This document shows, piece after piece, positions 2,915-8,472 of a stretch of 64,000 nt of DNA. The position numbers were made by a program, and so were the translations under genes. This stretch comes from Nitrospirota bacterium (GTDB lineage Bacteria; Nitrospirota; Nitrospiria; SBBL01; JAADHI01). Location of the stretch: the NCBI GenBank assembly GCA_029261135.1, contig JAJDBX010000026.1, positions 1 through 64,000 of the forward strand, read 5' to 3'. How positions within the stretch are numbered: position 1 is the first letter of the stretch; each line of letters starts with the position of its first letter. A model generated the notes under the pieces. The model was not told the origin of the DNA. It saw only the letters and a program-made list of their open reading frames with translations, and ran no database searches.

Positions 2915-2974
2915 CCAGAAACGACATACTCCTCTTCAGAAAAATGATCCGTTAACCTGCAATTGGGAAAACAT

Positions 2975-3445
2975 ATGGCCGAGGCTGAAAGTTATCGATC
3001 ATTAATCGAACAAGAGTGGGCGGATATCCATCACTCTCGTGTTCAGGAATGGACTGCTTTAGGCATTATTGTCGGAGCACATCTAGGGCTCATCCAACTC
3101 ACGAAAATTTTTATTGACCTTAAAGTCAGTCTCTCAATCTCTTCAATAGGAATTTCCGCGTCCATAATCGGAGCAATACTTTCCATTTTAGGCGCCTTAA
3201 TGACCTGCCGGCACCGGCACTTGATGCGTGTAAAGCTCACTTGGATATATGACGCCGAATTCCAATTGGGACTCATTAAATCAGATAAAAACCCCAACGG
3301 GGTGATTCCAGAAAATGCACTCATGCTTGCTCCAATAGAATGGCGTGGGCTGTCTTTACCCCGCCTACTTTCTACGAGCGGTCTGATTTTTAGCTTTTAT
3401 CTTGTCTTTTTCATCATAGATTTAATCGTCATTGCATGGATTTAA
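2975..3445 (+). CDS. Hypothetical membrane protein, three hydrophobic segments
   Basis: I do not recognise this family. From the ATG at 2975 it is 156 residues; an in-frame TTG at 2963 is possible but less likely. A soluble N-terminus of about 28 residues (rich in E, W and H) is followed by two hydrophobic segments (about residues 29-50 and 55-78), a CRHRH basic patch, a cytoplasmic or periplasmic stretch, and a C-terminal hydrophobic segment (about 132-155). It is the first gene of a tight cluster; its last codons overlap the start of a 37-residue ORF. Its AT-rich composition matches the rest of the accessory block. Confidence 0.6.
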   Translation: MAEAESYRSLIEQEWADIHHSRVQEWTALGIIVGAHLGLIQLTKIFIDLKVSLSISSIGISASIIGAILSILGALMTCRHRHLMRVKLTWIYDAEFQLGLIKSDKNPNGVIPENALMLAPIEWRGLSLPRLLSTSGLIFSFYLVFFIIDLIVIAWI

Positions 3446-3549
3446 CAAACCACTTCAGAAACTATTCACAAGCAGCAGATGGGCCCGATGTCCTGCAGGC
3501 ACTCCTCCCCTTCACCCATGATGAGATTTTTAAAATTGAGGCCTCATGA
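3436..3549 (+). CDS. Candidate small protein (37 aa) coupled to both neighbours
   Basis: ATG at 3436 lies inside the last codons of the membrane protein gene. The TGA at 3547-3549 overlaps the ATG of the DUF1971 gene in an ATGA arrangement. The product (MDLTNHFRNYSQAADGP and on, ending FTHDEIFKIEAS) has a balanced soluble composition. No function is recognised. The two-sided overlap suggests translational coupling in a three-gene operon. It could also be the surviving tail of a larger gene. Confidence 0.4.
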   Translation: MDLTNHFRNYSQAADGPDVLQALLPFTHDEIFKIEAS

Positions 3550-3836
3550 ATTATCAGAATGAAAAACTTCCTCCAAATGTGGTAAAAGTGGGTTCAACTG
3601 ATCCCATGGATGAAACAAATATTCTTTCTGGACTACTGAAAAACCATGCAACTTCATCTGGAAAATTCGGATATCTTGTTGTTCAAGCAGGTTCTCTTCA
3701 GTTTGTGTGGGAAGACAACAATGAAATATTTGATTCAGATTCAAGTCATCCCATTGTCATTTTTCCAGAACGAGTACACCATGTTCAACTCATTGGGAAA
3801 GTCAGATTTCATATTGAATTTTACAAGCTCAAATAA
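3546..3836 (+). CDS. DUF1971 / TehB-like cupin-fold protein
   Basis: Small 96-residue protein whose body (from about residue 27, GLLKNHATSSGKFGYLVVQ, to the end) matches my memory of the DUF1971 family. These are small cupin-like proteins annotated as tellurite-resistance related because they resemble the N-terminal part of some TehB proteins. The expected pattern of a Gly-rich turn followed by L.F and a late IxPxxxHxVxL segment is present (IVIFPERVHHVQL). GAGG about 7 bases before the ATG can act as a ribosome binding site. It is the last gene of the cluster beginning at 2975. No tellurite gene partner is present. Confidence 0.65.
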   Translation: MNYQNEKLPPNVVKVGSTDPMDETNILSGLLKNHATSSGKFGYLVVQAGSLQFVWEDNNEIFDSDSSHPIVIFPERVHHVQLIGKVRFHIEFYKLK

Positions 3837-3959
3837 GAGGAGCTGGAACATTTGTGGTCGGGACAATTTTCTTCTTTTATGATGGATGATCATTATCTGT
3901 TCTTGGCGGAGAAGATATGGTCATTAATCCGGAGAGAGAGAAAGGGGTGAAAGTGTCGA

Positions 3960-4160
3960 CCCTATTGGTTTGTAACCAAGCTTAAAAAAGCATCGTGCCA
4001 AATACTTTATCGTCAAAACCCATGATCAAAATGAAAGATACATAATGAAGTATGGATTCTCAAGAATTCTCCAAATAAAATGCCATGGATACACATCTAC
4101 TCATCTGAAAATAACAAAGATTTGCTAAAAAAAATGAAAAGTCATATTTTAGAATTTTAA
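3960..4160 (+). pseudogene. Degraded gene remnant, family unknown
   Basis: The 557-base gap 3837-4393 has no intact gene, but two pieces in different frames look protein-like. About 3982-4040 reads LKKHRAKYFIVKTHDQNERY. About 4040-4160 reads on as HNEVWILKNSPNKMPWIHI and ends KKMKSHILEF before TAA at 4158. Joining them needs one frameshift near 4040, and stops block the frames further upstream. An inverted repeat TTGGTT-TGT-AACCAA lies at 3965-3979. The call rests only on amino-acid texture. Confidence 0.3.
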
Positions 4161-4295
4161 AAGAAAAACAGTTACAAAAAGAGAGATAGGATCTCTTAAA
4201 TAGATGAACCAGAAGAAGCAAAAGAAAATCAATCATCCCCTCAGAAGAGCAACAGACCCGATCAAAAAAAATGTGGGTTCAGGGTGAATTGCACC

Positions 4296-4324
4296 TTAGA
4301 ATAAAGAGGTCAGATCTTTATATA
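4296..4324 (+). promoter_or_regulatory. Possible promoter of the SIR2-like/DUF262 operon
   Basis: TTAGAA (4296-4301) and TATATA (4319-4324) are spaced by 17 bp. GGAG at 4382-4385 is placed 8 bases before the ATG at 4394 and makes that start credible. The -35 is a weak match. Confidence 0.35.
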
Positions 4325-4393
4325 TCAGAACAGAATCAACAAAAGAATTAAAAGCGTCATTCCGGGTAGAAAAGGTAAAGTGGAGAACACTAG

Positions 4394-5427
4394 ATGAAAT
4401 ACCTGTTTTTTTTAGGAAATGGATTCTCCCTTGATTTGATTCAGCATCTCAAAAGACAAGAGGACATCCTCCTGACTAATCTCTTTGCACATGGGGATAG
4501 GATTACATGGCCTCCTTATAACCGCAATGCATTCATATCGTTTCGTAACACACCAAACTTATGGATTCTAGGGGTCAGACCTACCAACACAAGCGAAAAA
4601 AACAACCAAATTGTCGAGAATGTGATCACATGTGCGAATGCATACTATCTGAAGCCCTCAAACTCAAAAAGTTTTGGAATGTCTGACAAACGGAGTATTT
4701 ACATTAAAGCGTATAAAGAATTAGTCGTATATCTGAAGTATCTCTTCGTCTGGTTCGATAGCGATGTATCTATCGCCGAAGCTGCTTTGGATGGTTGGAC
4801 TTGGGCAGACTTTCTGGTTGGTCTCAATGATGACCCTATAAAGTTAGGGAAATTAATGTTGTTACGTTTAACTACGATTTGTGGTTAGAAAGAGTACTCA
4901 ATGATCTGAAGATCGCGTATCACGTGCCCGTCATTTCCGGCGATAAAGAAGGTAAGGTTTCAATTACTAAACTTCATGGATCTATCTCCTTTATTCACAA
5001 AAAACCCCAAGACCCTGCCGCTTTCAGCATCAACTATGATAGTGACTACCTTGAAGGATCGCCTGAAGACTTTGAAGTTAAAATGGCAGATCTCGATCAA
5101 AATACTCCTATCATTCCACTAATCCCACCTGCTGGTGATGGCGAACGTTTAAACAAAACATGGGCCTACAAACTTCGCTTAGAGGCAATGGGTAAAGCAG
5201 AGTCTCTAAAAAGTGGAGACAAAGTAGTTTTATGCGGCCTTTCCTACTGGCATGTTGACCGGAGAGAGATTGATGAGGTACTCATAAGAATTCCAGACGA
5301 CGTGGAGCTTGCCTTTATTAATCCCACTCCTCCCGAGACTTTCGATGCCGTTCTTACCTCATTATTCAAACACTACGAACATTACTCGTCAGTTGAGCGA
5401 TACGTGGGAGGTACCTGTTATGCCTGA
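4394..5427 (+). pseudogene. SIR2-like NAD-binding domain protein, interrupted by a one-base frameshift
   Basis: The first frame (4394-4888) starts MKYLFFLGNGFSLDL, a Gly-rich opening typical of SIR2-like and related NAD-binding folds. The second frame carries NVVTFNYDLWLERVL, then a TKLHGS element, and near the end GLSYWHVDRREIDEVL and INPTPPETFD, the usual order of SIR2-like motifs (TFNYD, LHG, G-S, INP). The two halves join cleanly if one base, probably an A in GGGAAATTA at 4847-4855, is restored; the product would be 344 residues. SIR2-like domains in defence systems hydrolyse NAD; that role here is inference. Its stop overlaps the DUF262 start by 8 bases, so the two are probably co-translated. 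It could be a true mutation or a sequencing indel. Confidence 0.7.
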
Positions 5428-6469
5428 CTATCTGCAACGTGAAAGCAACAAAATTACCATCGCGAACTTCTATGAAGGATTTGAACTTGAAAAGTTCAAC
5501 TTTGAACCCCCGTATCAAAGACGGAGTCTGTGGAGTGATGAGAAGAAGTCATTCTTAATTGATAGTATTATAAAGAACTATCCCATGCCGCCAATATTTC
5601 TTCACCAAAAAATCAACGATGACACAGGGAAGACATTATATGACGTAATTGACGGTAAGCAAAGACTAACAGCAATCGTTGATTTCATTCAAAATAAAAT
5701 CCCCATAACAGATGATGAAGATGAAGATCCTTCGGTCGATAATCCGATCGCTGGATGTTTCTTTCGTGATTTTGACGGCGGAGAATTATCCGATTACAAG
5801 AGTAGGTTCTGGCGTTACATAATCCCTGTTGAGTATGTTGATACAGGAGACTCAAAGATCATTGATTCAATCTTCGACAGGTTAAACCGAAATGGTGAAC
5901 CCTTGAGAGGACAAGAGTTGCGGCATTCAAACTATTACGGAACCCCCTTAATCAATCTAATCGAAGAGTCAGCAAAAGAACTATTCTGGAAAGAAACCCT
6001 GAGTACTCTTGATCATCCTCGAATGCAGGAGATCGAATTTTTGAGTGAATTAGTATTCCTTATTATTGAAGGGCACGAACTCCATGCAAACCAAAAAGAG
6101 CTAGATGCTCTTTACAAAGAATACGCGGACAAACCAACGACTAACTATAGTGATTTGCAGAAAGACTTTAGAGAAATTTCAAGTTATATGGAGTCTCTTC
6201 GAAAGAGCTCCCCGGATATGCAAGTTAATGGCGTTAGTCATCTTTATGGACTCTTTGCTTTCAGCCATCATTGCGTGAAGAAGAATGTTGAAAGTGATAA
6301 AATCATCCCCCGCCTCAATGATTTTTTTGCTCTGTGGAAATCAAAGAATTATGAGAATCCCGAAGTTAGTAAATATAAGGAGAGCATGTCATCAAGAACC
6401 AGGAGTAGTGGTCAAAGAAAGAAAAGAACAGAAGCTCTGATAGAGTTTTGTATCGAGAACCCCAAGTGA
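5420..6469 (+). CDS. DUF262 (GmrS/ParB-like) domain protein
   Basis: 349 residues from the ATG at 5420, chosen because the family pattern begins there; a longer frame from 5309 runs inside the SIR2-like gene. Family hallmarks are FEPPYQRRSLWS (about 28-39), the KSFLIDSIIKNYPMPPIFL block (43-61) and DGKQRLTAI (78-86), the latter equivalent to the DGQQR catalytic motif of the ParB/sulfiredoxin-like fold. A second conserved stretch, FDRLNRNGEPLRGQELR, follows in the middle. In GmrSD and SspE proteins this domain uses NTP and controls a fused C-terminal DUF1524 HNH nuclease. Here the rest is helical with no HNH motif. The partner may be the SIR2-like protein or the separate HNH gene downstream. 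Confidence 0.85.
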   Translation: MPDYLQRESNKITIANFYEGFELEKFNFEPPYQRRSLWSDEKKSFLIDSIIKNYPMPPIFLHQKINDDTGKTLYDVIDGKQRLTAIVDFIQNKIPITDDEDEDPSVDNPIAGCFFRDFDGGELSDYKSRFWRYIIPVEYVDTGDSKIIDSIFDRLNRNGEPLRGQELRHSNYYGTPLINLIEESAKELFWKETLSTLDHPRMQEIEFLSELVFLIIEGHELHANQKELDALYKEYADKPTTNYSDLQKDFREISSYMESLRKSSPDMQVNGVSHLYGLFAFSHHCVKKNVESDKIIPRLNDFFALWKSKNYENPEVSKYKESMSSRTRSSGQRKKRTEALIEFCIENPK

Positions 6470-6508
6470 AGCATTTTTGTTCACAATAAATAGTTCTAGA
6501 GAGTAAAC

Positions 6509-7477
6509 ATGTCAATATTATCATGTGTTGAGATTTGTGCGGGTGCCGGAGGGCAAGCGCTAGGGTTAGAGAAAGCGGGTTTTGAACCCAAAGCGCTGGT
6601 AGAAATTGAAAAACCTTGCAGGGATACACTTATCAACAATAGGCCACACTGGAACGTTATTGAAGGGGAACAATGTGACGTAAAGCAATTTGATGGCACA
6701 CCATACAAGGGCATAGATCTTCTCGCCGGTGGCGTCCCATGCCCCCCCTTTTCAAAAGCTGGGAAGCAATTGGGCGAGGGGGATGAACGTGATTTGTTTC
6801 CTGAAGCATTACGATTAATTGATGAATGCAGACCCCGTGCAGTAATGTTAGAGAATGTTCGAGGGTTCTTGGATGCAGTCTTTGAAGACTACCGTTGTAA
6901 TCTCAAGCGGCAACTTGAAAAAATGGGTTATATCACGGATTGGAGATTACTCAACGCTTCTGACTTTGGTGTATCCCAACTAAGGCCTCGTGTTGTTATC
7001 GTTGCTATACGTGAAAACCTGTCAGAGCATTTTTCATGGGCCAAATCCCATGCCTATAATCCTCCCACTGTCGGCGAACTGTTGTATGACCAGATGGCCT
7101 CGCGAGGTTGGAAGGGTGCAAAGAGATGGATGAAGCAAGCTGATGATATTGCACCAACTATTGTAGGCGGTTCTAAGAAACATGGCGGTCCTGATTTAGG
7201 TCCAACCCGTGCAAAACGTGCGTGGGCAACACTTAGTGTTGATGGGATGGGGATAGCCAATGAACCACCTGAACGAGATTTTGTTGGCATGCCAAGATTA
7301 ACCGTTAAAATGGTTGCAAAGATTCAAGGTTTTCCTGATGACTGGCACTTTTCTGGGAAGAAAACCCCTGCTTATCGCCAAGTGGGCAATGCTTTTCCAT
7401 CACCTGTTGCTCATGCGGTTGCAGCCAAGATTCGGAAGTGCCTTGCACATAAAACAATCTTCTCAATTGCTGGGTAA
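6509..7477 (+). CDS. DNA (cytosine-5)-methyltransferase
   Basis: Intact 322-residue C5-MTase. Motif I is CAGAGGQALGLEKAGF (about 10-25, SAM binding). Motif IV is GGVPCPPFS with catalytic Cys78; the residue after the Cys is Pro where Gln is commoner. Motif VI is ENVRG (115-119), motif VIII QLRPRVVIVAI, and motif X RQVGNAFPSPVA near the C-terminus. The target-recognition region between VIII and IX is short. It would protect DNA from a cognate endonuclease, most simply the HNH gene 11 bases downstream. It is complete whereas its neighbours are damaged, so it may now act as a solitary methylase. Specificity cannot be read from sequence. Confidence 0.92.
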   Translation: MSILSCVEICAGAGGQALGLEKAGFEPKALVEIEKPCRDTLINNRPHWNVIEGEQCDVKQFDGTPYKGIDLLAGGVPCPPFSKAGKQLGEGDERDLFPEALRLIDECRPRAVMLENVRGFLDAVFEDYRCNLKRQLEKMGYITDWRLLNASDFGVSQLRPRVVIVAIRENLSEHFSWAKSHAYNPPTVGELLYDQMASRGWKGAKRWMKQADDIAPTIVGGSKKHGGPDLGPTRAKRAWATLSVDGMGIANEPPERDFVGMPRLTVKMVAKIQGFPDDWHFSGKKTPAYRQVGNAFPSPVAHAVAAKIRKCLAHKTIFSIAG

Positions 7478-7488
7478 GCTTTTCAATT

Positions 7489-8096
7489 ATGGCAAAAAAA
7501 AAGGCGCAAGAACAAAACTCAGAGAACACTTTCTTTCGAATATCGGGAAAATAATGGCCTCCGATGAGCTTAGAGAAGTCGCTGGGGGAATTACTGAATG
7601 AGCAAGACGGGTAAGGGAACTACGGACTGAAGAAGGATATAAAATTCAAACACATAATGACCGAAGCGATCTGAAACCTGGTCAATATATTTTGCAAGAT
7701 CCAAAACCACAACCGGCTTTTGAGCGGATCATATCAAAAGAAACCCGTGCTTTCGTTCTGGATAGAAATGGATTTACCTGTCAAATGTGTGGTGCTGTAG
7801 CCGGAGAATCTCACCCCTATGACCCATCAAGAAAAACTCGATTGCATATTGGTCATATCGTAGATAAGTCCCAAGGTGGAACAGATGATGCTTCAAACCT
7901 TCGGGCCTTATGTTCTGTATGTAACGAAGGGGCATCTAATTTAACCCTTGAGAGACCTTCATCTCAGAAATTGCTTATTCAAGTAAGAAGAGCAAAAGGT
8001 GGAGATCAATTGGAACTCTTGAGATGGTTAATTCATAAGTTTCCAGAGGAAGCAAAAAAATTAATCAAACCCACGCTTGATTTTAAAAAAGCGTAG
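7489..8096 (+). pseudogene. HNH restriction endonuclease, broken by an A9 frameshift and an in-frame TGA
   Basis: ATG at 7489 reads MAKKK into a run of nine A (7494-7502). One more A would put it in frame with KLREHFLSNIGKIMASDELREV. That frame runs to GGITE, then TGA at 7599-7601, then ARRVRELRTEEGYKIQTHND with no loss of register. From memory, relatives have a Trp here, so TGG to TGA is the simplest change. The catalytic part is complete: FTCQMCG and LCSVCNEG give two CxxC pairs, and LHIGHIVDKSQGGTD with SNLRAL is the HNH core. Restored length is about 202 residues. It follows the methyltransferase as in type II systems. As written, only a fragment from a downstream start (for example TTG at 7692) could be made. 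Confidence 0.8.
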
Positions 8097-8394: not shown

Positions 8395-8472
8395 TGGTGT
8401 CCCCAAGGGGATTTGAACCCCTGTTACCGCCGTGAAAGGGCGGTGTCCTAGGCCAAGCTAGACGATGGGGAC
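8395..8472 (-). tRNA. tRNA-Glu (anticodon UUC)
   Basis: Read on the minus strand: acceptor arm GTCCCCA pairs with TGGGGAC, the D arm is GTCTAG/CTAGGAC, and the anticodon loop CTTTCAC sits in a CCGCC/GGCGG stem (anticodon TTC). The T arm is AGGGG-TTCAAAT-CCCCT, and the CCA end is encoded (TGGT at 8395-8398 on the plus strand). Length is 78 bases with CCA. Its 3' end faces the accessory block and is followed by the strong terminator at 8341-8381. Confidence 0.96.

Follow-up and report, generated by a model that had tools for sequence, protein, structure and literature searches.

Does a SIR2-like gene that overlaps a DUF262 gene form a defense system in its own right, or does it belong with the cytosine methyltransferase and HNH endonuclease genes that follow it? 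The question is raised by positions 4394 to 8096 of the DNA analyzed here, a stretch of 64,000 nucleotides (the window) from contig JAJDBX010000026.1 of a Nitrospirota bacterium. DUF262 occurs in several defense systems of unknown trigger, namely, Menshen, Dazbog, and PD-T4-2. We found that the SIR2 and DUF262 genes form a two-gene system, which stands alone in more than half of the loci, and that a restriction-modification (R-M) system is most likely an optional, selectively chosen companion. This defines a compact, widespread SIR2 system, intact in Escherichia coli and not named in PADLOC, that points to a new variety of phage defense.

The pair was delineated by one scan of 84,980 genomes with an alignment of the SIR2-like family, which returned 40 loci. 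DUF262 lies immediately downstream of SIR2 on the same strand in 39 of them, mostly at a spacing of -17 to +5 nucleotides (overlapping or abutting), and the 40th is a marginal, unrelated match. Because DUF262 directly follows every true match, usually overlapping the SIR2 stop codon, the two genes constitute a system, and their arrangement, which recurs in about 40 loci, is not due to chance. No C5-methyltransferase R-M system accompanies the pair in over half of the loci, and many pairs stand alone among housekeeping genes. An earlier reading of the window, made from its letters alone (the sequence-only reading), had proposed looking in other genomes for the pair with or without its neighbors and had allowed that the two genes might never co-occur or that the first might fall outside the SIR2-like families; these counts speak against the first possibility and the fold described below against the second. 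In the genome scan, hosts belong to Pseudomonadota, Bacillota, Bacteroidota, Nitrospirota, and Deferribacterota, and a plasmid set adds Campylobacterota. The pair is present in 27 of 5,426 complete E. coli genomes, where one example lies in an island at tRNA-Arg that also holds an integrase and remnants of BREX; the proteins of an intact E. coli pair are WP_000093565.1 and WP_000404337.1. Relatives of both genes are intact on a viral contig from IMG/VR (L002; L numbers denote loci), a second viral contig (L007) holds another intact relative, and a Sulfurovum plasmid (L003) carries a relative of the pair in which the SIR2 gene is frameshifted too.

In the window, the four genes were described as running in one direction in the order SIR2-like, DUF262, C5-methyltransferase, and HNH, with 8 bases shared by the first two. 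All four are present on the forward strand in that order, adjoining a tRNA-Glu gene, and the overlap is real. The features are as follows.

4394 to 5427, forward strand: SIR2-like gene, frameshifted near 4837 to 4843 (N-terminal part at 4394 to 4888, C-terminal part at about 4843 to 5427 in a different frame)
4870 to 4872, forward strand: codon for the conserved Asn in (T)FNYD, predicted to lie in the NADase active site, invariant in all 34 relatives with residues there
4975 to 4977, forward strand: codon for the conserved His in HGSISF, predicted to lie in the NADase active site, invariant in 34 of 34 relatives
5420 to 6469, forward strand: intact gene for a DUF262 (GmrSD_N, ParB/Srx fold) protein of 349 amino acids, overlapping the SIR2 stop by 8 bases (5420 to 5427)
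5648 to 5665, forward strand: IDGKQR, counterpart of the nucleoside triphosphate (NTP)-binding motif (I/V)DGQQR of GmrS and SspE, with DGKQR invariant in 40 of 40 sequences
6509 to 7477, forward strand: intact C5-cytosine methyltransferase gene of the M.NgoMIV family, target GCCGGC predicted by homology
7148 to 7216, forward strand: target-recognition stretch IAPTIVGGSKKHGGPDLGPTRAK, conserved with M.NgoMIV-type enzymes
7489 to 8096, forward strand: HNH endonuclease gene in the restriction endonuclease position, disrupted, with the longest remaining open reading frame at 7692 to 8096
8395 to 8472, reverse strand: tRNA-Glu gene, bounding the putatively acquired segment and conserved in congeners without the cassette

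The SIR2-like identity of the first gene holds, although it is not a single open frame. Neither of its two pieces matches any family when searched alone; joined, the two can be aligned with intact relatives over the full length, and the matching stretches include GNGF, (T)FNYD, HGS, and SYWHVDR. Library models barely reach the family (SIR2_2 at 5.6e-5, below the cutoff; PADLOC SIR2 at 1.5e-4). An AlphaFold model of an intact relative (predicted local distance difference test score, 89) was closest in Foldseek to the SIR2 protein of SIR2-HerA (1e-8), followed by ThsA and DSR2, and the Asn and His motifs align with TTNYD and LHGS, respectively, of PsSIR2 from SIR2-HerA. As modeled, then, the family has the SIR2 Rossmann fold with the catalytic Asn and His, and the protein is presumably an NADase. 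Across 43 loci, SIR2 is broken in seven and DUF262 in one (SIR2-only losses, 6, versus DUF262-only losses, 0; p=0.03), as expected for a costly effector. In addition to L003, frameshifts or stops interrupt the SIR2 genes of L029, L036, L046, L047, and L049, with DUF262 open in all except L046.

A Pfam search of the second gene returned GmrSD_N (DUF262, PF03235; 3.7e-24) and no DUF1524, which agrees with the sequence-only reading. The protein is built of the GmrSD N-terminal domain only, plus a helical C-terminal half. Its structure model is closest to BrxU, ParB-CTPase, and SspE, and the motif that IDGKQR parallels is described for GmrS and SspE (PMC10952713). Matches to influenza HA2 in a PDB profile search of this protein were rejected as weak coiled-helix noise. 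We infer that DUF262 senses DNA.

Against the collection of defense profiles in PADLOC, the nearest models to DUF262 were NsnA of Menshen (3.7e-35) and PD-T4-2_A (2.8e-19). The sequence-only reading could put no name to the combination, and no PADLOC model describes the pair, nor does any SIR2 model there match at useful scores. Menshen (NsnABC) provides the closest model, and Menshen loci also adjoin methyltransferases of the RCCGGY type; however, genuine NsnA is extended at its N terminus and reaches 386 bits, as compared with 120 for the DUF262 protein here, the partner here is SIR2, and neither NsnB (an ATPase) nor NsnC is found in the window cassette or in the inspected pair loci. PD-T4-2 has a related DUF262 subunit, and a PD-T4-2-like pair follows the same methyltransferase family in L180 and L181, but here only the A-like DUF262 is present and the effector is SIR2 rather than the HEPN-like PD-T4-2_B. 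BrxU, GmrSD, and SspE share the DUF262 fold and a conserved NTP motif, whereas the system described here lacks a DUF1524 HNH domain, fused or as a partner, has IDGKQR in place of DGQQR, and uses a separate SIR2 partner. SIR2-HerA (Nezha), DSR2, and ThsA likewise share the SIR2 fold with conserved Asn and His, but their sequence similarity to the pair's SIR2 is confined to the active site, and a DUF262 partner replaces HerA, the large sensor domain, or the SLOG domain. HerA is not the partner here; DUF262 holds that place in every true locus. No Dzb model of Dazbog was among the PADLOC matches, the coverage of DzbA and DzbB in PADLOC not having been verified. In the literature compared, which did not extend to a 2025 paper on Menshen (PMC12065111), DUF262 and SIR2 appear together in one review only, as separate topics.

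The third gene was correctly described as a cytosine methyltransferase (DNA_methylase, 7e-65). Its product is about 62% identical to gonococcal M.NgoMIV and 68 to 72% identical to methyltransferases annotated beside NgoMIV restriction endonucleases, and its target recognition domain is of the type found in M.NgoMIV and its relatives next to NgoMIV or NaeI-like endonucleases. By homology to this NgoMIV-partnered family (G1, below), the enzyme is predicted to methylate GCCGGC. In this respect the cassette resembles an NgoMIV-type type II R-M system; it differs in having the SIR2-DUF262 pair upstream and a broken HNH gene, not the PD-(D/E)XK enzyme NgoMIV, in the endonuclease position. That fourth gene is indeed a separate HNH endonuclease gene (HNH, 2e-10 in the remaining open reading frame), but it does not start at 7692: similarity to relatives can be followed back to about 7491, across an in-frame TGA (7599 to 7601) where they have Trp. 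An ATG at 7489 lies in a different frame, beside a poly-A run, and the HNH frame itself has no start. Reading TGA as Trp to rescue the frame was rejected because DUF262 ends in TGA and the methyltransferase and HNH genes use TGG for Trp. The protein belongs to HNH/HNH_5 and is absent from most pair loci; its family recurs beside window-type methyltransferases in L024 and L049, where it is intact, and in 11 viral loci. Membership in Druantia, suggested by DruM2 matches, was also rejected, because this methyltransferase model is common to type II enzymes; PADLOC found no other Druantia proteins among the neighboring genes.

Which methyltransferases accompany the pair elsewhere? Nineteen C5-methyltransferases lie near it, 16 of them in two families, G1 and G2. 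G1 members near the pair (the window, L018, L024, L028, L034, L037, L040, L042, L043, and L049) have the conserved recognition stretch in common. Their partner is NgoMIV in six loci (four by model and two by sequence likeness; PF09015 down to 1e-140, 1FIU at 5e-96), HNH in three, and none in L018. Elsewhere, without the pair, G1 corresponds to the family of gonococcal M.NgoMIV, and it is found next to an NaeI-like endonuclease as well. The G2 members (L020, L027, L030, L035, L038, and L046) have a Bse634I/Cfr10I partner in three loci. Because NgoMIV recognizes GCCGGC and Cfr10I/Bse634I recognize RCCGGY (PMC4652773), GCCGGC is common to the sites of both families. In L018 and L038, the methylase has no adjacent cognate endonuclease.

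Several loci form tight operons (M, methyltransferase; R, restriction endonuclease): M-R-SIR2-DUF262 in L035, L042, and L049, M-R-Vsr-SIR2-DUF262 in L037, M-SIR2-DUF262 in L038, and SIR2-DUF262-M in L018. Overall, the M-R genes may be upstream, downstream, convergent, or divergent relative to the pair, and the endonuclease varies too. In the DUF262 tree, L038, with its RCCGGY-type G2 methyltransferase, falls inside a clade otherwise tied to GCCGGC-type G1 enzymes, as if the methylase had been swapped for one with an overlapping site. A single ancestral operon of methyltransferase and pair was rejected as the whole explanation, since at least 5 to 7 changes in linkage are needed on the G1 methyltransferase tree; two unrelated methyltransferase families and differing orders and orientations also count against it.

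L040 (4697 to 6535) encodes a natural fusion of a C5-methyltransferase and an NgoMIV endonuclease, one protein of 612 amino acids; a Vsr gene and the pair lie downstream of it. In the genome of L029, the nearest relative of the window pair, a G1-type methyltransferase lies by an NaeI-like endonuclease (5e-30) away from the pair (L244, 6001 to 7953). RCCGGY-type methyltransferases are regularly accompanied by a family of about 363 amino acids (L020, 9230 to 10321 on the reverse strand; L235, L236, L245, and 10 viral loci), which is probably an uncharacterized restriction endonuclease; its L020 member had no Pfam or PDB match. A G2-like methyltransferase is followed by MORC-like HATPase and Mrr-helicase genes in L041 (1732 to 6715) and L237 (5923 to 11331), and the next gene in L041, whose N-terminal half matches the N terminus of Menshen NsnA (47%), is followed by the SIR2-DUF262 pair.

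Clustering in defense islands might bring any methylase near the pair, but G1 and G2 make up 16 of the 19 C5-methyltransferases near it versus 3 of 40 (all G1, none G2) in a random sample of C5-methyltransferase loci in Pseudomonadota (Fisher p=7e-9; 1e-5 when tallied as independent events, 9 of 12). Among those random loci, a DUF262 gene occurs in one and the SIR2-DUF262 pair in none. Moreover, within pair-bearing genomes, where linkage was judged by hand, the pair is linked to 13 of the 16 copies of G1 or G2 but to 3 of the 16 C5-methyltransferases of other kinds (p=0.001). The sequence-only reading had offered a two-protein system sitting beside a type II R-M system; the stand-alone pair is borne out, whereas an accidental R-M neighbor is at odds with the recurrence of two methyltransferase families.

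Other DUF262 systems are found beside the same methylases. On viral contigs, about a third of G2 loci have another DUF262 gene nearby (seven Menshen-type, two PD-T4-2-like, and one unnamed DUF262 pair), and viral R-M systems of the G1 type have any DUF262 in 2 of about 64 loci. Menshen-type sets lie directly downstream of RCCGGY-type C5-methyltransferases in viral loci L160 to L163, L167, L172, and L182 and in genomes (L238 and L239); NsnA, NsnB, and NsnC were confirmed by models in L161, and the others were judged by matching gene layout. About 800 genomes drawn evenly from Bacillota and Pseudomonadota include six that bear G2 (center excluded), and DUF262 adjoins the methyltransferase in three of these (two Menshen-type and one SIR2 pair). 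In L180 (5974 to 8784) and L181, an RCCGGY-type methyltransferase overlaps a PD-T4-2-like DUF262 gene accompanied by a HEPN-like gene (PD-T4-2_B, 4e-4; RiboL-PSP-HEPN, 5e-14). An unnamed unit in L150 (3113 to 4779) and L177 (7110 to 8862), by G1-NgoMIV or G2 methyltransferases, consists of a gene for a protein of 204 to 209 amino acids, with an SDxDI motif and nucleotidyltransferase-like by eye, that overlaps a DUF262 gene. From the Menshen-type, PD-T4-2-like, and SIR2-pair loci, three DUF262 systems with different effectors recur by the same GCCGGC/RCCGGY methylase families, which offers a testable guess on trigger and self-protection. It is conceivable, but unlikely, that these are variants of one modular form of restriction. 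Self would be marked by a C5-methylase acting at CCGG sites, the DUF262 NTPase would read the mark on incoming DNA, and the cell would be killed or arrested, with no cutting of the DNA, by an effector that can be exchanged (SIR2 NADase, Menshen ATPase/NsnC, HEPN, or the nucleotidyltransferase-like protein).

How, then, might the pair act? We consider it fairly probable that the pair acts by abortive infection, with DUF262 detecting the DNA of an invader and then licensing a SIR2 NADase, and that this unit is often joined to CCGG-site R-M. The core would be a translationally coupled sensor-effector unit, in which DUF262, a putative NTPase with the ParB/Srx fold that is also seen in the sensor domains of BrxU, GmrS, and SspE, would recognize invading DNA and, with NTP binding or hydrolysis, switch on the SIR2-like protein, which would destroy NAD+ and halt phage growth through cell killing or arrest. 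Here and in many other islands, the unit was joined to an NgoMIV-like type II R-M system (GCCGGC). R-M would be the first line, and SIR2-DUF262 would form a second one, linked to that DNA site or to how the site is modified; we infer both the abortive outcome and this cooperation. Several points weigh against this account. Most genomes with stand-alone pairs carry no GCCGGC/RCCGGY methyltransferase anywhere, the exceptions being G070, which has an unlinked copy, and G076, where G2-like copies lie at a distance of about 5 kb; stand-alone loci do not avoid GCCGGC (observed/expected ratio, 0.90; rank 37 of 64) as compared with a ratio of 0.53 in linked loci. The R-M link is therefore not obligatory, and unmethylated GCCGGC was rejected as a universal trigger. 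In addition, defense-island clustering could account for part of the linkage, and the frameshift and stop in the window could be assembly or sequencing errors.

The same observations bear on the rivals. It is rather doubtful that DUF262 reads GCCGGC/RCCGGY methylation itself, with the methylase marking self, unmarked phage sites triggering NAD+ destruction, and the endonuclease optional. Such reading would explain why only CCGG-site C5-methyltransferases are regular partners, in either order and with differing or no adjacent cognate endonucleases (L018 and L038), why an RCCGGY-type methyltransferase, with a site range that includes GCCGGC, stands in for the GCCGGC type within one DUF262 clade (L038), and why the same families adjoin Menshen (L161 and its kin, L238, and L239), PD-T4-2-like (L180), and unnamed (L150 and L177) systems. 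Yet stand-alone pairs persist where the genome is rich in GCCGGC and lacks any such enzyme. The enzyme is also missing from L014, L015, and L044, close relatives of the methyltransferase-linked L018. Because stand-alone genomes mostly lack a G1 or G2 methylase, methylation reading holds only if sensors differ between lineages. The four-part system once suggested for the window, with DUF262 sensing modification state, is favored by association as a hypothesis. That the island simply houses two functionally unlinked systems, an autonomous abortive pair and ordinary type II R-M, is somewhat doubtful: over half of the pairs have no nearby C5-methyltransferase, G1-type R-M usually lacks the pair, as the viral loci indicate, and GmrSD relatives are known in defense islands among R-M genes (PMC4619093), but the partner range is narrow, CCGG-type copies are preferentially linked within pair-bearing genomes, and several loci form one tight operon.

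Sensing like that of type IV restriction, in which DUF262 would recognize 5-methylcytosine or another cytosine modification generally and fire SIR2, seems improbable. Its fold and motif match those of BrxU, reported to act on modified cytosines, and the DUF262 of Dazbog likely recognizes methylated DNA (PMC10952713). However, the pair coexists with resident C5-methyltransferases, CCGG types adjoining it and others present in about 9 of 22 stand-alone genomes; general 5-methylcytosine sensing would be self-toxic and is disfavored, an argument that does not reach the sensing of hydroxymethylcytosine or its glucosylated form. Quite unlikely, too, is a toxin-antitoxin module in which DUF262 restrains a SIR2 toxin. 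Two coupled genes and the excess of SIR2 losses would suit it, but those relatives of DUF262 for which a function is known act as sensors with DNA-dependent NTPase activity and not as antitoxins (PMC10952713), and the invariance of the NTP motif speaks for DUF262 taking an active part. DNA sensing that licenses SIR2, with R-M as a frequent partner, remains our preferred account.

In the window itself, the sensor and methylase genes are still open, but SIR2 and HNH, the two effector genes, are each disrupted, so the unit is probably dead. Three congeners keep the tRNA-Glu and the neighboring M32 peptidase gene, and no cassette genes were found near the tRNA in any of them, so the cassette segment is probably a recent acquisition at the tRNA. 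Beside the cassette lie a gene for a small membrane protein with a weak 8xMP match (2963 to 3445) and a DUF1971/TehB-like remnant (3546 to 3833), and the intergenic DNA from 3836 to 4394 has a decayed appearance.

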